From Erythrobacter sp. ANT-B3C2 (lineage in GTDB: Bacteria; Pseudomonadota; Alphaproteobacteria; Sphingomonadales; Sphingomonadaceae), in the NCBI GenBank assembly GCA_001683845.1, contig LXQI01000007.1:62001-126000 (forward strand): a stretch of DNA of 64,000 nt, read 5' to 3'. The notes beneath the pieces are model-generated. The model did not search any database. It was not told the origin of the DNA and worked only from the letters and a program-made list of their open reading frames with translations. The number at the start of each line of letters is the position of its first letter. Position 1 is the stretch's first letter. This document shows, piece by piece, positions 51,945 to 58,679 of the stretch. The translations under genes and the position numbers were made by a program.

Positions 51945-52049
51945 ACAGCGTCCGCCTTTTGGAAATGTTGAGGTTGCCCTTCCAACCCGCGCCTCGCCAA
52001 TCGGTTGCCCACCATCGCCACTCATCAGGACTAGCCGAATCCAACACGC

Positions 52050-52064
52050 GAACATATATGGAAC
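52050..52064 (+). promoter_or_regulatory. LexA (SOS) box, GAAC-N7-GAAC
   Basis: A perfect match to the alphaproteobacterial LexA site (GAAC, seven bases ATATATG, GAAC; equivalently GTTC-N7-GTTC). It overlaps the first possible ATG (52058) of the radical SAM gene, which argues that translation begins at 52067 or later and that the radical SAM-UdgX pair is induced by DNA damage. Confidence 0.75.
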
Positions 52065-52066
52065 AA

Positions 52067-53338
52067 ATGGATCGCCCCAAAACCTCCAGCGGAACCCCCC
52101 ATTCCATCATGGAAAAGCTGGCGGTGCTGGCCGATGCGGCGAAGTACGACGCCTCCTGCGCCTCCTCCGGCACCGCCAAGCGCAACAGCGCTGGCAGCGC
52201 CAAGGGTATCGGCTCGACCGAGGGCATGGGCATCTGCCACGCCTACGCGCCCGATGGCCGCTGCATCTCGCTGCTCAAGATTTTGCTGACCAACCACTGC
52301 ATCTTCGATTGCCACTATTGCATCAACCGCAAGAGCTCGAACGTGCGCCGCGCGCGCTTCACCCCGGCCGAGGTGGTCGACCTCACGCTCAGCTTCTATC
52401 GCCGCAACTATATCGAAGGGCTGTTCCTCTCCTCGGGCATCATCAAGAGCTCCGATTACACGATGGAACAGCTGGTCGAGGTCGCGCGATCACTGCGCGA
52501 GGACCACCACTTCCGCGGCTACATTCACCTCAAGACCATCCCCGATGCCGATCCGCAGCTGGTCCACCAGGCCGGGCTCCATGCGGATCGCGTCTCGATC
52601 AATGTCGAACTGCCCACCGATGCCGGCCTCGCCCGCCTCGCGCCGGACAAGGACGCACGCGGCATCGAAGGCGCAATGGGCGGGATGAAGATGGCGATCA
52701 AACAGGCGCGCGACGAGACCAAGCGCTTCAAGCACGCCCCCCGCTTCGCCCCCGCCGGGCAGTCGACGCAAATGATCATCGGCGCCGATGCCGCCAGCGA
52801 TGCCGATATCGTGGGCAAGGCCAGCCGCCTTTACGATGGGTTCGGCCTGCGCCGCGTCTATTACTCCGCCTTCAGCCCCATTCCGGATGCCAGCGCGGTG
52901 CTGCCATTGAAGCGCCCGCCGCTGATGCGCGAACACCGGCTGTACCAGTCCGATTGGCTGATGCGCTTCTACGGCTACACTTCAGGCGAGGTGATGCAGG
53001 CCACCGGCGATGATGGGATGCTGCCGCTCGATATCGATCCCAAGCTCGGCTGGGCGCTGAAGTTTCGCGAGCAATTCCCGGTGGATGTGAACCGTTCCTC
53101 ACGCGAGATGTTGCTGCGCGTGCCAGGGTTGGGGGTGAAGGCGGTGAACCGGATCATCACCTCGCGCCGCCACCGCACGCTGCGGCTGGAGGATGTGGGC
53201 AAGCTCACCGTCTCGCTCACCAAGGTGCGCCCGTTCATCGTCACCGTCGACTGGCGCCCCACCTTGCTGATCGACCGGGGCGATCTGCGCCGCCTGCTCG
53301 CGCCGAAGAAAGAGCAGCTGGAGCTGTTCGCCGCATGA
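52067..53338 (+). CDS. Putative DNA modification/repair radical SAM protein
   Basis: A 423-residue radical SAM enzyme with the cluster motif in 'HCIFDCHYCINR' (CxxxCxxC). The N-terminus 'LAVLADAAKYDASCASSG' and 'GICHAYAPDGRCISLLKILLTNHC' are typical of the family always paired with a TIGR03915/UdgX-like protein. A C-terminal helix-hairpin-helix ('LLRVPGLGVKAVNRIITSRRHRTL') suggests DNA binding. The reaction is unknown. The start is uncertain among 52058, 52067 and 52109; 52067 clears the LexA box. The stop overlaps the UdgX start (ATGA). Confidence 0.88.
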   Translation: MDRPKTSSGTPHSIMEKLAVLADAAKYDASCASSGTAKRNSAGSAKGIGSTEGMGICHAYAPDGRCISLLKILLTNHCIFDCHYCINRKSSNVRRARFTPAEVVDLTLSFYRRNYIEGLFLSSGIIKSSDYTMEQLVEVARSLREDHHFRGYIHLKTIPDADPQLVHQAGLHADRVSINVELPTDAGLARLAPDKDARGIEGAMGGMKMAIKQARDETKRFKHAPRFAPAGQSTQMIIGADAASDADIVGKASRLYDGFGLRRVYYSAFSPIPDASAVLPLKRPPLMREHRLYQSDWLMRFYGYTSGEVMQATGDDGMLPLDIDPKLGWALKFREQFPVDVNRSSREMLLRVPGLGVKAVNRIITSRRHRTLRLEDVGKLTVSLTKVRPFIVTVDWRPTLLIDRGDLRRLLAPKKEQLELFAA

Positions 53339-54783
53339 ACGCGCTCCAGCATGTCCGGCTTGGCACCTACTACGTGGCGCAATTGCCCGAACAGGACGAT
53401 TTCGAGTTCTGGCGCGATCGGGCGCGCGCGCTCGTCCAGTGCGACGTGCCACCCGATCGCATCGCCTGGGTGCCCCCCGGCGGCAATGGCGATCTGTTCA
53501 CTCATGGCGAGCGCCGTGCCCCCGTGCCCCCCGCCGATGCCGCGATGGTGCGCGCCAGCAAGCCCTTCATCCAACTCGCCAGAAGCGCGATCTGCCACAG
53601 CGACCCCGATCGCTTCGCGCTGCTCTACCGCCTGCTCTGGCGCCACCAGGCCAACCCGAAAGTGCTCGAAGACCGCGCCGATGGCGACGTGCGCCGGCTG
53701 GACGAACTCGCCCGCCATGTGCGGCGCGACATTCACAAGATGCGCGCCTTCGTCCGCTTCCGCCTGGTTGAAGATGAGGCGGCCCAAGGCGGCGAGAGCG
53801 AGGAGCATTACGTCGCCTGGTTCGAGCCCGAGCACCACATCCTGCGCGCCAATGCCGGCTTTTTCACCCGCCGCTTCGCCAATATGCGCTGGTCGATCCT
53901 CACCCCGAAAGGCTCGCTCCACTGGGACACGCAGGCACTGGCGGAAGGCCCCCCGGCCGAACGCGCCGATGCCCCCGCCGGCGATCCGGTGGAGGCCCTG
54001 TGGCGCAAATATTACGCCTCCACCTTCAACCCCGCGCGTTTGAAGGTCGGGGCGATGCTGAAGGAAATGCCCCGCAAATATTGGAAGAACATGCCCGAAA
54101 CATCGCTCATCCCCGAGCTGGTCGCGGGCGCACAGGCGCGGGAGGCGGCCATGGTCGATGCAGGGTCAATCGAACCGAGCGAGCGCCCCGATACGCTCGA
54201 CGCCATCGCCAGCGCGATTCATTCCTGCCGCCGCTGCCCGATCGGCGAGCTGGAAAACCAGGCGGTGATGGGCGAGGGGCCGCGCCGTGCTGCGCTGATG
54301 GTGGTGGGCGAACAGCCCGGCGATCAGGAGGATCTCGCCGGCAAGCCCTTCGTCGGCCCCGCCGGGCAGGTGCTCGATCGTTTCCTGCAACAGGCCGGGA
54401 TCGACCGCGAGCAAACCTACGTCACCAACGCGGTCAAGCATTTCAAATTCACCCAGCGTGGTAAGCGCCGACTGCACCAATCGCCCACCGCCAAGGAGAT
54501 CGACATCTGCCGCTGGTGGCTGGAGGGCGAGCGTGCGCTGGTGCAGCCCCGGCTGGTGCTGGCGCTGGGCGCCAGCGCCGCGCGCGGCCTGCTCGGCAAG
54601 ACGGTGAGCATCTCCAGGGTGCGCGGCGCCGCGCAGATGCTGGAGGATGGCAGCGAACTGTGGGTCACCGCGCATCCATCCTATCTGCTGCGGCTCGAAG
54701 GCCCCGCACGCGAGGAGCAGGAGCGCCTGTTCGCCGCCGATCTCGCCGCGGTGGCCGAGCGACTGGCCGAGCTGGCGCAATGA
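53335..54783 (+). CDS. udgX: DUF4130 / UdgX fusion: uracil-DNA crosslinking glycosylase
   Basis: A 482-residue fusion. Residues about 1-255 are the DUF4130 (TIGR03915) domain ('FALLYRLLWRHQANPKVLED', 'RRDIHKMRAFVRFR', 'ILTPKGSLHWD'). Residues about 285-482 are a family-4-like uracil-DNA glycosylase of the UdgX type: 'GEQPGDQEDLAGKPFVGPAG' (325-344), 'TNAVKHFKF', and the loop 'GKRRLHQSP', whose H381 is the residue known in mycobacterial UdgX to bond covalently to DNA after uracil removal. C298/C301 are candidate Fe-S ligands. Coupled to the radical SAM gene and probably LexA-controlled. Confidence 0.92.
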   Translation: MNALQHVRLGTYYVAQLPEQDDFEFWRDRARALVQCDVPPDRIAWVPPGGNGDLFTHGERRAPVPPADAAMVRASKPFIQLARSAICHSDPDRFALLYRLLWRHQANPKVLEDRADGDVRRLDELARHVRRDIHKMRAFVRFRLVEDEAAQGGESEEHYVAWFEPEHHILRANAGFFTRRFANMRWSILTPKGSLHWDTQALAEGPPAERADAPAGDPVEALWRKYYASTFNPARLKVGAMLKEMPRKYWKNMPETSLIPELVAGAQAREAAMVDAGSIEPSERPDTLDAIASAIHSCRRCPIGELENQAVMGEGPRRAALMVVGEQPGDQEDLAGKPFVGPAGQVLDRFLQQAGIDREQTYVTNAVKHFKFTQRGKRRLHQSPTAKEIDICRWWLEGERALVQPRLVLALGASAARGLLGKTVSISRVRGAAQMLEDGSELWVTAHPSYLLRLEGPAREEQERLFAADLAAVAERLAELAQ

Positions 54784-55076
54784 GCGGCGGTTACGCTCCA
54801 ATTGCAAGGCGGCTGCAAACCGGCCTGCGCGTGCGTTCCGACGCCGCATTTTGCGCGGCCCGTGCAAGCTGCGGCGGAGCAGATGCAGCACCGGTTCACC
54901 CCGGTTTCGGGCGGGATGCAAGGCGCCGCAAGGCGGGTGCATTTGCCCGCCGAACGGGTGGTGGCGTGGGCTTCGTCCGGTGCCGTTGCGCCCCCGATGC
55001 AACCCCCTTGCAAGGCGGTGCAAAGCGGCCTTCGCGGCCCGCTGTTGCGCTCTAGCGGCAGCGCGGGGCGCGCCCG
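54784..55076. other. Spacer before dnaE2 with helically phased TGCA motifs
   Basis: No gene is supported. Nine TGCA tetranucleotides occur in 293 bp (54803, 54814, 54863, 54884, 54917, 54938, 54998, 55009, 55019), mostly as TGCAA within GCAAGGCG contexts, with several spacings of 10, 11, 21 and 33 bp. An imperfect LexA-like GTTC-N7-TTTC lies at 54894-54908. The spacer resembles the one at 355-579. Confidence 0.45.
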
Positions 55077-58000
55077 ATGCCCGATCCTTCCTCCACTCCC
55101 GACAAACGCACAATCGAGCTCGATCCCGAGCTGATCGACGCGCCGCCGCGCGCACCTTTCGTCGAGCTTGGCATTGTCTCGTGCTTCAGCTTCCTGCGCG
55201 GTGCATCGGATGCGGTGGACCTGGTGACGGCGGCCCGGGCGCTCGGCTACGATGCGCTCGGCATCGCCGATGGCAATTCGATGGCCGGCGTGGTGCGCCT
55301 GCATACCGAAGCGAAAACACTGAAACTGCATCCGCTTATCGGCTGCAGAATAGAAACGGTGGAAGGTCTTTCCTTCCTCGCCTATCCCACCACGCGCGCG
55401 GCCTATGGCCGCCTGTGCCGCCTCATCTCGGCCGGACGCATGGCCACGCTCACGGGCGAATGGCAGGAGAAAGGCGCCTGCGAGATCAGCCTCGCCATGC
55501 TGGCTCAGCATGCGTCTGGGGCGGGAGAAGGGGCGGTGCAGCTGGTCCTGCTGCCTCCGAGCGATCTCGAGGCCGCGTTCACGATTGAGGTGCCGAGTAA
55601 CGTCATCCCCCTTCCCGTGCGGGGAGAGGATGGGGAGGGCGGACCGCCTGCGCCCAACACCCTCCAGCGCACGCTTCCCTTCACACAGGTGTTGCCACAC
55701 CTCGCCGCGCTGCTGCCCAGTCTGCGGCACCTCGCCGCGAATTACCTCTACACCGGCGACGATATTGCCCGGATCGACCGGCTCGATGCGCTTGCCCGCG
55801 CCAGTGGGCTGGGCCTGCTCGCCACCAACGACGTGCATTACCACGCGCCGGATCGCCGCCCGCTGCAGGACGTGATGACCGCCATCCGCCACAAGACCAC
55901 CGTCGCCGCGGCCGGCCACCTGCTCCACGCCAATGCCGAGCGGCACCTGAAATCGCCGGCCGAGATGGTCCGCCTGTTCGCCCGCTGGCCGCACGCCATC
56001 GCCGCCGCGCGCGCAGTTGCCGATGCCTGCCGCTTCTCGCTGGACGAATTGGCCTACGAATACCCGCAGGAGATCACCCCCACCGGGATCAGCCCGCAGG
56101 AACACCTGACCCGGCAGACCTGGCAGGGCGCAAATGAGCGTTATCCCAATGGGATACCGGACACAGTTGCTGAAACACTCGAACGCGAGCTGGCACTGAT
56201 CGGCAAGCTCGATCTCGCGCGGTACTTCCTCACTATCCAGGACATCGTCGATTACGCGCGGAGTGTGAATCCGCCGATCCTGTGCCAGGGGCGCGGTTCG
56301 GCAGCCAATTCGGCGGTGTGCTATTGTCTGGGCATCACCGCGGTGGATCCGGCGAAACACCAGCTGCTGTTCGATCGCTTCATCTCCGAAGAGCGCCGCG
56401 AGCCGCCCGATATCGACGTCGATTTCGAGCACGAGCGGCGCGAGGAGGTAATCCAGCACATCTATCGCAAATATGGCCGCCACCGCGCCGGGCTGTGCGC
56501 CACCGTGGTCCACTATCGCCCGCGCATGGCGATCCGCGAGGTGGGCAAGGCAATGGGGCTGAGCGAAGACGTCACCGCCGCGCTCGCCGGCACGGTGTGG
56601 GGCGGGTGGGGCAAGGAGATCGGTGATGCCCATGCCGAGGAGGTGGGGCTGGACATCACCGACCCGCATCTCAAGCGTGTGCTCCAGCTCACCCGGCAGA
56701 TGATCGGCATGCCGCGCCACCTCAGCCAGCATGTCGGGGGCTTCATCCTCACCGAGGGCGCGCTGAGCGAGACGGTGCCGATCGGCAATGGCGCCATGCC
56801 CGAGCGCAGCTTCATCGAATGGGACAAGGACGATATCGAAGCGCTCGGCATCCTCAAGGTCGATGTGCTCGCGCTGGGGATGCTGACCTGTGTGAAGAAG
56901 TGCCTCGATCTACTTGAAAAGCATCACGATCGTGCGCTGACCTTGGCCAGCGTGCCGCGCGAGGACCCGGAGGTCTACGCCATGCTGCGCAAGGGCGATT
57001 CACTCGGCGTGTTCCAGGTGGAGAGCCGGGCGCAGATGAACATGCTGCCCCGCCTGCGTCCGCGCGAATTCTACGATCTCGTCATCCAGGTGGCGATCGT
57101 GCGGCCCGGGCCGATCCAGGGCGATATGGTGCACCCCTATCTCAAGCGCCGGCGCGGGGCGGAACCCGTCCGTATCCCCTCGCCCGCCCCCGAGCATGGG
57201 CCCCCCGACGAGCTTTCCAGCATTCTCGCCCGAACCCTAGGCGTGCCGATCTTCCAGGAGCAGGCGATGAAAATCGCGCTCGATGCGGCGCGGTTCTCCA
57301 GCGCCGAGGCCAACCGGTTGCGCAAGGCAATGGCCACCTTTCGCAGCCGTGGGATGGTGGACGAATTGCAGGACATGATGGTGGAACGAATGGTGAACCG
57401 TGGTTACAATCGCGAGTTCGCCCAGCGCTGCTTCAACCAGATCCGCGGCTTCGGGGAATATGGCTTTCCCGAGAGCCACGCCGCTAGCTTTGCGCATATC
57501 GTCTATGTCAGCAGCTGGCTGAAGTGCCACTTTCCGGCCGCCTTCACCTGCGCGCTGCTCAACTCACAGCCGATGGGCTTCTACGCCCCGGCGCAGATCG
57601 TGCGTGATCTGCGCGAGCATGGCGGCACGGTGCTGCCGGTGGACGTCAACCATTCCGGGTGGGACTGTACGCTGGAAGAGATCGGCGAGCGGGAACCGGG
57701 CGGGGCGGACACCGGTCGGCTCGACTGCCACCTCGCATTGCGCCTCGGGCTGCGGCAGGTTGACGGGCTGCCCGAGCATGTCGTCGCCCGCCTGGTCGCC
57801 GCGCGCGAGGAGGGCGGCGGCCCCTATCGCGCCGTGGCCGATGTGCAGAGCCGGGCCGGGCTCGGCCCTGCGCAGATCGAACGGCTCGCCAGCGCCGATG
57901 GCTTTGGCTCGATGGGCCTTTCCCGCCGGCAGGCGCTGTGGGATGCGCGCAGCCTGATCGCCGCGCCCGACCTGCCGCTGTTCCGCGCCGCCGCCGCGCG

Positions 58001-58679
58001 CGACGAGGGGGCCGAGCGGGTGCAGGTGGCGCTCCCCCCCATGCCGCTCTCCGAGGAGGTGGTGGCCGATTACCAGACCACCCGCTTCAGCCTGAAGGCG
58101 CATCCGCTCGCCTTCCTCCGCGCCGATCTGGCGGAGCGCGGCTTCGTGCGCGCCTGCGACCTGCGCTCGCGCAAGTTCCGCAGCCAGGTGCAAGTGGCCG
58201 GCGTGGTGCTGATCCGTCAGCGGCCGGGCAGCGCCAAGGGTGTGTGCTTCATCACGCTGGAGGACGAGACGGGGGTGATCAACCTCGTCGTCTGGCCCGA
58301 CCTGAAGGAGAAGCAGCGCCGCGTGGTGATGGGCGCGCGGCTGATGGAGGTGCGCGGCCGGGTGGAATATGACGACGAGGTGATCCACGTGATCGCCGCG
58401 CATATGGTCGACGCGACCGGGCGGTTGCACGCATTATCGGAGGATCTGCTCAAGCCCACCTTCGCCCGCGCCGATCATGTCACCAGCCCGCTACCCGCCC
58501 GTTGGGGACCGAGCCGAGGCGAGGGCGGAGACGATCCGCAAGCGCCTGACAAGCCGCCAATCGATCCATGGCAGCCGCCGCCGCCCGGCAATCGGGAGTG
58601 CGGGTTCGTGCAGGGCGGCCACCCGCGCGATGCCCGGATCATCCCCCGCATCCTGCCGCATCCGCGCGATTTTCATTGA
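55077..58679 (+). CDS. dnaE2: Error-prone DNA polymerase DnaE2
   Basis: A 1200-residue C-family polymerase of the damage-mutagenesis type. It has a PHP domain at the N-terminus ('VELGIVSCFSFLRGASDAVDLV'), the palm with 'PPDIDVDFEHERREEV', 'GFILTEGALSETVPI', 'GRAQ...MLPRLRPREFYDLVIQVAIVRPGPIQGDMVHPYLKRR' and, near the C-terminus, an OB-fold ('VQVAGVVLIRQRPGSAKGVCFITLEDETG'). DnaE2 extends past lesions with ImuA/ImuB, which are not in this window; here it follows the SOS-type UdgX pair. A low-complexity insert at about residues 172-205 ('VIPLPVRGEDGEGGPP') is unusual for the PHP region. Confidence 0.95.
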   Translation: MPDPSSTPDKRTIELDPELIDAPPRAPFVELGIVSCFSFLRGASDAVDLVTAARALGYDALGIADGNSMAGVVRLHTEAKTLKLHPLIGCRIETVEGLSFLAYPTTRAAYGRLCRLISAGRMATLTGEWQEKGACEISLAMLAQHASGAGEGAVQLVLLPPSDLEAAFTIEVPSNVIPLPVRGEDGEGGPPAPNTLQRTLPFTQVLPHLAALLPSLRHLAANYLYTGDDIARIDRLDALARASGLGLLATNDVHYHAPDRRPLQDVMTAIRHKTTVAAAGHLLHANAERHLKSPAEMVRLFARWPHAIAAARAVADACRFSLDELAYEYPQEITPTGISPQEHLTRQTWQGANERYPNGIPDTVAETLERELALIGKLDLARYFLTIQDIVDYARSVNPPILCQGRGSAANSAVCYCLGITAVDPAKHQLLFDRFISEERREPPDIDVDFEHERREEVIQHIYRKYGRHRAGLCATVVHYRPRMAIREVGKAMGLSEDVTAALAGTVWGGWGKEIGDAHAEEVGLDITDPHLKRVLQLTRQMIGMPRHLSQHVGGFILTEGALSETVPIGNGAMPERSFIEWDKDDIEALGILKVDVLALGMLTCVKKCLDLLEKHHDRALTLASVPREDPEVYAMLRKGDSLGVFQVESRAQMNMLPRLRPREFYDLVIQVAIVRPGPIQGDMVHPYLKRRRGAEPVRIPSPAPEHGPPDELSSILARTLGVPIFQEQAMKIALDAARFSSAEANRLRKAMATFRSRGMVDELQDMMVERMVNRGYNREFAQRCFNQIRGFGEYGFPESHAASFAHIVYVSSWLKCHFPAAFTCALLNSQPMGFYAPAQIVRDLREHGGTVLPVDVNHSGWDCTLEEIGEREPGGADTGRLDCHLALRLGLRQVDGLPEHVVARLVAAREEGGGPYRAVADVQSRAGLGPAQIERLASADGFGSMGLSRRQALWDARSLIAAPDLPLFRAAAARDEGAERVQVALPPMPLSEEVVADYQTTRFSLKAHPLAFLRADLAERGFVRACDLRSRKFRSQVQVAGVVLIRQRPGSAKGVCFITLEDETGVINLVVWPDLKEKQRRVVMGARLMEVRGRVEYDDEVIHVIAAHMVDATGRLHALSEDLLKPTFARADHVTSPLPARWGPSRGEGGDDPQAPDKPPIDPWQPPPPGNRECGFVQGGHPRDARIIPRILPHPRDFH

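Follow-up and report, generated by a model that had tools for sequence, protein, structure and literature searches.

The question raised by this locus is whether a short direct repeat lying across the apparent start of a radical SAM (rSAM) gene is a genuine LexA operator and, if it is, what an rSAM protein made under DNA damage might do in the company of UdgX and an error-prone DNA polymerase. The window, by which we mean the whole stretch of 64,000 nucleotides analyzed from Erythrobacter sp. ANT-B3C2 (contig LXQI01000007.1), carries the following features:

52031..52037, + strand: -35-like block, CTAGCCG here (family consensus C-T-N-G-N-C), conserved in 77 aligned family promoters
52050-52064, + strand: LexA operator GAAC-N7-GAAC, GAACATATATGGAAC, an exact match, kept in position in 79/80 loci of the family and 38/38 loci of other Alphaproteobacteria
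52055..52060, + strand: putative -10-like element TATATG inside the operator, in the conserved spacer
52067..53338, + strand: rSAM gene, TIGR03916/COG4277-like, 423 aa from ATG 52067 (match to TIGR03916; box-to-ATG distance)
53335..54783, + strand: DUF4130-UdgX fusion, 482 aa (TIGR03915 for DUF4130, TIGR03914 for UdgX)
55077..58679, + strand: dnaE2, error-prone DNA polymerase (NF004225), probable distal member

A first-pass annotation of the sequence had claimed a perfect GAAC-N7-GAAC over the first ATG of the rSAM gene, and the repeat is indeed there at 52050-52064, with an ATG (52058-52060) inside GAACATATATGGAAC that is in frame with the gene. One such box taken alone is near the chance level and constitutes weak evidence: the bare pattern occurs twice in the window versus 1.16 times expected, 33 of 100 shuffled sequences reach the same count, and genome-wide it is found 67 times versus 71 for a reversed control pattern, i.e. 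without enrichment. The bare frequency is uninformative.

Judged by position and conservation, the box upstream of the rSAM gene stands far above chance. The annotation had staked its reading on the box being conserved upstream of orthologues, and it is kept there, within 150 nt of the gene, in 79 of 80 orthologous loci of the same family and, in either orientation, in every one of the 38 loci that could be read in other families of the Alphaproteobacteria; the fraction expected by chance to have a box within 150 nt is 0.0024-0.0044. A binomial P for this conservation is not to be taken literally because the sequences are related, though, apart from three short blocks, the flanking sequence is randomised. 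Counted over named genome loci, the box is present in 77 of 80, the exceptions being Luteibacter, Niveispirillum and a Rhodospirillales MAG. On the coding strand the direct repeat usually reads GAAC at rSAM genes (loci L061-L140) and GTTC at lexA (L290-L319), and some rSAM copies carry it in the opposite orientation.

The E. coli-type LexA motif is CTGT-N8-ACAG. Outside the class, in other classes of the phylum, this motif occupies the same place in 14 of 20 loci; the other six are without an exact LexA box, two of them matching with one mismatch. The GAAC-N7-GAAC repeat is absent upstream of the rSAM gene in all 20 of these loci, and CTGT-N8-ACAG was not found upstream of any alphaproteobacterial rSAM copy examined. 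The GAAC-type repeat is stated to be the LexA motif of Alphaproteobacteria (PMC8565304), and the operator follows the motif that each group's own LexA should recognise; a neutral or unrelated element would not change in this way. In a positive control, lexA itself was found to have the direct repeat in 28 of 30 family genomes. The organism's own lexA (C11:27810-28490, - strand) has it at C11:28522, and its imuA has a LexA-type box, GAACATAAACAGAAC, 17 nt before the ATG (box L321:29-43; genes L321:61-3207). Conservation together with the clade-matched change of motif strongly supports LexA/SOS control of the rSAM operon, which we regard as nearly certain; LexA would be expected to bind the operator and DNA damage to induce the genes. 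Nearly all of the related genomes tested keep this damage-responsive switch, so damage to its DNA most likely leads the cell to express these genes.

The operator also bears on the start of the gene. The start codon lies exactly 2 nt past the box in 67 of 79 boxed genomes (64 ATG, 3 GTG) and 3 nt past it in three more, and because this distance is conserved, the real rSAM start is ATG 52067. ATG 52058 was ruled out as a start, since the in-box ATG is not conserved but mostly replaced in relatives (by AAG, AAA, GTG and others); the annotation's claim that SOS control corrects the start codon was right. When 77 family promoters are aligned over the region that begins 60 nt before the box and ends with the start codon, conservation is confined to the -35 block, the box including its TATA, and the ATG. 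In the -35-like block, at -19 to -14 from the box, T, G and C reach 88, 86 and 69% at -18, -16 and -14, and the box spacer reads T A T A at 97, 97, 81 and 82%, although it lies outside the GAAC half-sites. The 17 nt between the -35-like hexamer and TATAAG/TATATG, followed by 6 nt to the A of the ATG, would fit a sigma-70 promoter from which transcription begins at the start codon (+1). Since a generic sigma-70 scan recognised no promoter in the rSAM upstream region, we infer the promoter from conservation. No Shine-Dalgarno sequence is conserved in the aligned family promoters, and the rSAM mRNA is probably leaderless or nearly so.

The rSAM protein matches TIGR03916, which we take to be the same family as COG4277, with 574 bits versus a cut-off of 343.5. 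The CxxxCxxC motif (C78, C82 and C85) is present in 44 of 44 sequences, and a C-terminal helix-hairpin-helix (HhH; HHH_3) in all 44 proteins. Three further cysteines, C31, C57 and C66 (numbered from ATG 52067), are invariant in 44 of 44 TIGR03916 sequences, down to 49% identity. Their position before the core suggests a possible auxiliary Fe-S cluster, offered here as a lead only; the predicted structure is of low confidence at residues 31-55, the region of these cysteines. The fold neighbours include HydE, PflAE, HydG, lipoyl synthase, viperin and MiaB. An rSAM relative is found on 158 plasmid records, many of them in Phaeobacter, Paracoccus, Azospirillum and Leisingera. One record labelled as an Acinetobacter phage (L324, CAKLQH020000003.1) has rSAM and DUF4130 genes beside glyS, glyQ and aidB, and is probably bacterial DNA.

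The ATGA coupling of the rSAM gene to the DUF4130-UdgX fusion, likewise noted in the first-pass annotation, is present at 53335-53338, where the rSAM stop TGA (53336-53338) overlaps the ATG (53335-53337) of the fusion gene, and the gap between rSAM and DUF4130 is 20 nt or less in 60 of 78 family loci. In locus L103 a hemerythrin HHE gene (Pfam PF01814, 6.5e-19) lies between rSAM and DUF4130-UdgX, and a similar intervening gene was judged by eye to be present in L107, L122, L129 and L137. In the fusion protein the UdgX motifs are motif A, GEQPG (325-329), the R-loop KRRLH (377-381) and motif B, HPSYLLR (447-453; HPSxLLR); the equivalent of the crosslinking histidine, H381, is found in 32 of 32 fused proteins and the Q in 31 of 32. 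The crosslinking chemistry of UdgX is well studied in vitro. Read against mutational data (PMC10359453), the UdgX part keeps the residues needed for crosslinking, a chemistry (PMC10359453, PMC10776899) that leaves UdgX attached to the DNA, from which it would have to be removed (PMC10776899). The DUF4130 part has the invariant residues H134, R141, P165, R180, W223, Y226, R235 and E255, and in a fold search with the fusion protein the best 50 matches were all to the UDG domain.

Outside the class, the DUF4130 gene is without a UdgX motif at 13 of 21 loci (20 genomes). The constant pair is thus rSAM and DUF4130, because most of these loci lack a fused UdgX, and UdgX as a constant partner of rSAM was ruled out on the same count. 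The annotation had argued from SOS control to a joint chemistry of rSAM and UdgX: the SOS control stands, by conservation and the motif switch, and UdgX turns out to be an optional part, so that any joint chemistry would concern rSAM and DUF4130 first, presumably in the processing of damage.

The link to dnaE2 is real but loose. DnaE2 matches NF004225 with 1358 bits versus a cut-off of 939, and the 293 nt that separate its gene from UdgX (54784-55076) contain repeated TGCAAGGCGG units and near-palindromes. The nearest thing to a separate LexA box for dnaE2 is a one-mismatch match at 54894. Among 80 family genomes dnaE2 adjoins the fusion in 26, with a gap of 1-15 nt in most of these. On the rSAM protein tree the adjacent cases all belong to a single large clade and imply some 14 gains or losses, and on these grounds dnaE2 was ruled out as a fixed operon member in general. 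The genus to which the window belongs is represented by three further genomes, none of which has it adjacent, and some genomes with rSAM have no DnaE2 above the cut-off. The remaining mutagenesis genes, imuA (a weak but specific ImuA match) and an ImuB-like gene following it with IMS and DUF6504 domains, lie with their own LexA box on contig C10, and dnaE2 lies behind rSAM-UdgX on C41; a contiguous three-gene imuA-imuB-dnaE2 cassette does not occur in this genome.

These observations lead us to propose the following model. LexA bound to the direct repeat, which spans the putative -10 element and stops two bases short of the start codon, would keep the promoter shut. RecA filaments formed on damage would cause LexA to cleave itself, releasing a leaderless or nearly leaderless mRNA from about ATG 52067. 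This mRNA would encode an rSAM protein that has an HhH for DNA binding and may hold two Fe-S clusters, its partner DUF4130, which at this locus is joined to UdgX, and, in many members of the lineage, DnaE2 as well. The rSAM-DUF4130 pair would most likely process a damaged base in DNA chemically, and UdgX would remove uracil and remain attached by a covalent bond to its R-loop histidine, so that the AP site is capped until it is either bypassed by DnaE2 with ImuA-ImuB or excised.

To the whole reading, i.e. an SOS operon for damage processing by rSAM-DUF4130, AP-site capping by UdgX and bypass by DnaE2, we would give a probability of about 0.72. It builds on the operator, its conservation, the motif switch, the start codon, the gene order, the domains and the catalytic residues, all of which are read directly from sequence; the substrate, the reaction and the cooperation with DnaE2 are proposed on that basis. 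Damage processing by the rSAM-DUF4130 pair is, in our judgement, somewhat favoured, and the specific division of labour among rSAM-DUF4130, UdgX and DnaE2 is put forward with considerable doubt. Tentatively, the pair may be a two-cluster, SOS-induced radical enzyme acting on DNA, with a reaction (transformation of a base or reversal of a lesion) of a kind not yet described, to which the UdgX cap and DnaE2 are optional additions.

Other explanations have to be weighed against this. The operon may serve chiefly in uracil base-excision repair, dealing with uracil or ribonucleotides left by SOS polymerases, with rSAM and DUF4130 in the service of UdgX, e.g. by removing the UdgX-DNA crosslink. The intact catalytic residues of UdgX would agree with such a purpose, which has been proposed (PMC8565304), as would the need to remove DNA-bound UdgX (PMC10776899), but the 13 of 21 loci outside the class that have rSAM and DUF4130 without the UdgX motif imply that the pair is not solely a servant of UdgX, and we consider this explanation unlikely. 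Less likely still is a direct-reversal role for rSAM, in which it would repair a UV lesion in the manner of spore photoproduct lyase (SplB). DUF4130-linked rSAM proteins have been named SplB-like photolyases (PMC3765255), and SOS control and the HhH would be compatible with this role, but spore photoproduct lyase is neither among the best 50 fold matches nor among the sequence hits. The three extra invariant cysteines and the HhH domain are also atypical, being to our knowledge no features of spore photoproduct lyases. That rSAM-DUF4130 modifies bases for protection or marking rather than repair, with UdgX sensing unmodified or faulty bases, accords with the NCBIfam name ("putative DNA modification/repair") and with the occurrence of UDG-like domains also in a phage polymerase, but LexA control across classes argues for action under damage only and makes this quite improbable. 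Finally, a chance origin of the repeat, or its use by a regulator other than LexA, is hardly credible, since, for all that the bare pattern stays at background level in window and genome alike, its conservation is tied to position, the LexA motif switches between classes, and lexA and imuA have this repeat too.

The preferred reading, a damage-processing operon under LexA, can be set beside several known systems. The NCBIfam families TIGR03916, TIGR03915 and TIGR03914 are all three matched far above cut-off, and their names give no reaction; we know of no mention of SOS control in their records. SOS control of an rSAM/UdgX gene pair is not new, having been published for other clades: a 2021 study in Nucleic Acids Res (PMC8565304) predicted LexA control of the COG1573-COG4277 pair in Bacteroidetes, and a passage of the same paper mentions a UDG-based system under SOS control as reported for Verrucomicrobia and Alphaproteobacteria, with credit to papers on Verrucomicrobia and Caulobacter. 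Like the COG1573-COG4277 operon (PMC8565304), the present one places a UDG and a COG4277 partner behind the LexA motif of its clade. Its distinguishing points are an rSAM gene in first position, a UdgX fused to DUF4130, an operator that stops 2 nt short of the start codon, and a dnaE2 downstream. A link of DUF4130 to rSAM proteins and UDGs is also on record (PMC3765255), and our literature search returned no paper tying UdgX to radical SAM or LexA by these names. As in the imuA-imuB-dnaE2 mutagenesis cassette, DnaE2 is present and imuA-imuB is LexA-boxed, but here the cassette is split across contigs C10 and C41. The UdgX domain is 46% identical to the solved UdgX of Mycobacterium smegmatis (PDB 6ajp and others), with a TM-score of 0.87 on target and with GEQPG and KRR-x-H conserved in both; the solved protein consists of a UDG domain only, whereas the present one is joined to DUF4130 and encoded in an rSAM operon. 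What is added to these systems is the start and promoter anatomy, DUF4130 as the constant partner, the extra cysteines, the C-terminal HhH and the linkage to dnaE2. A core pair standing behind LexA operators of two clade types suggests a reaction that matters under DNA damage, its separability from UdgX shows where to look first for function, and with the start corrected and the promoter mapped, tests by induction and knock-out become straightforward.
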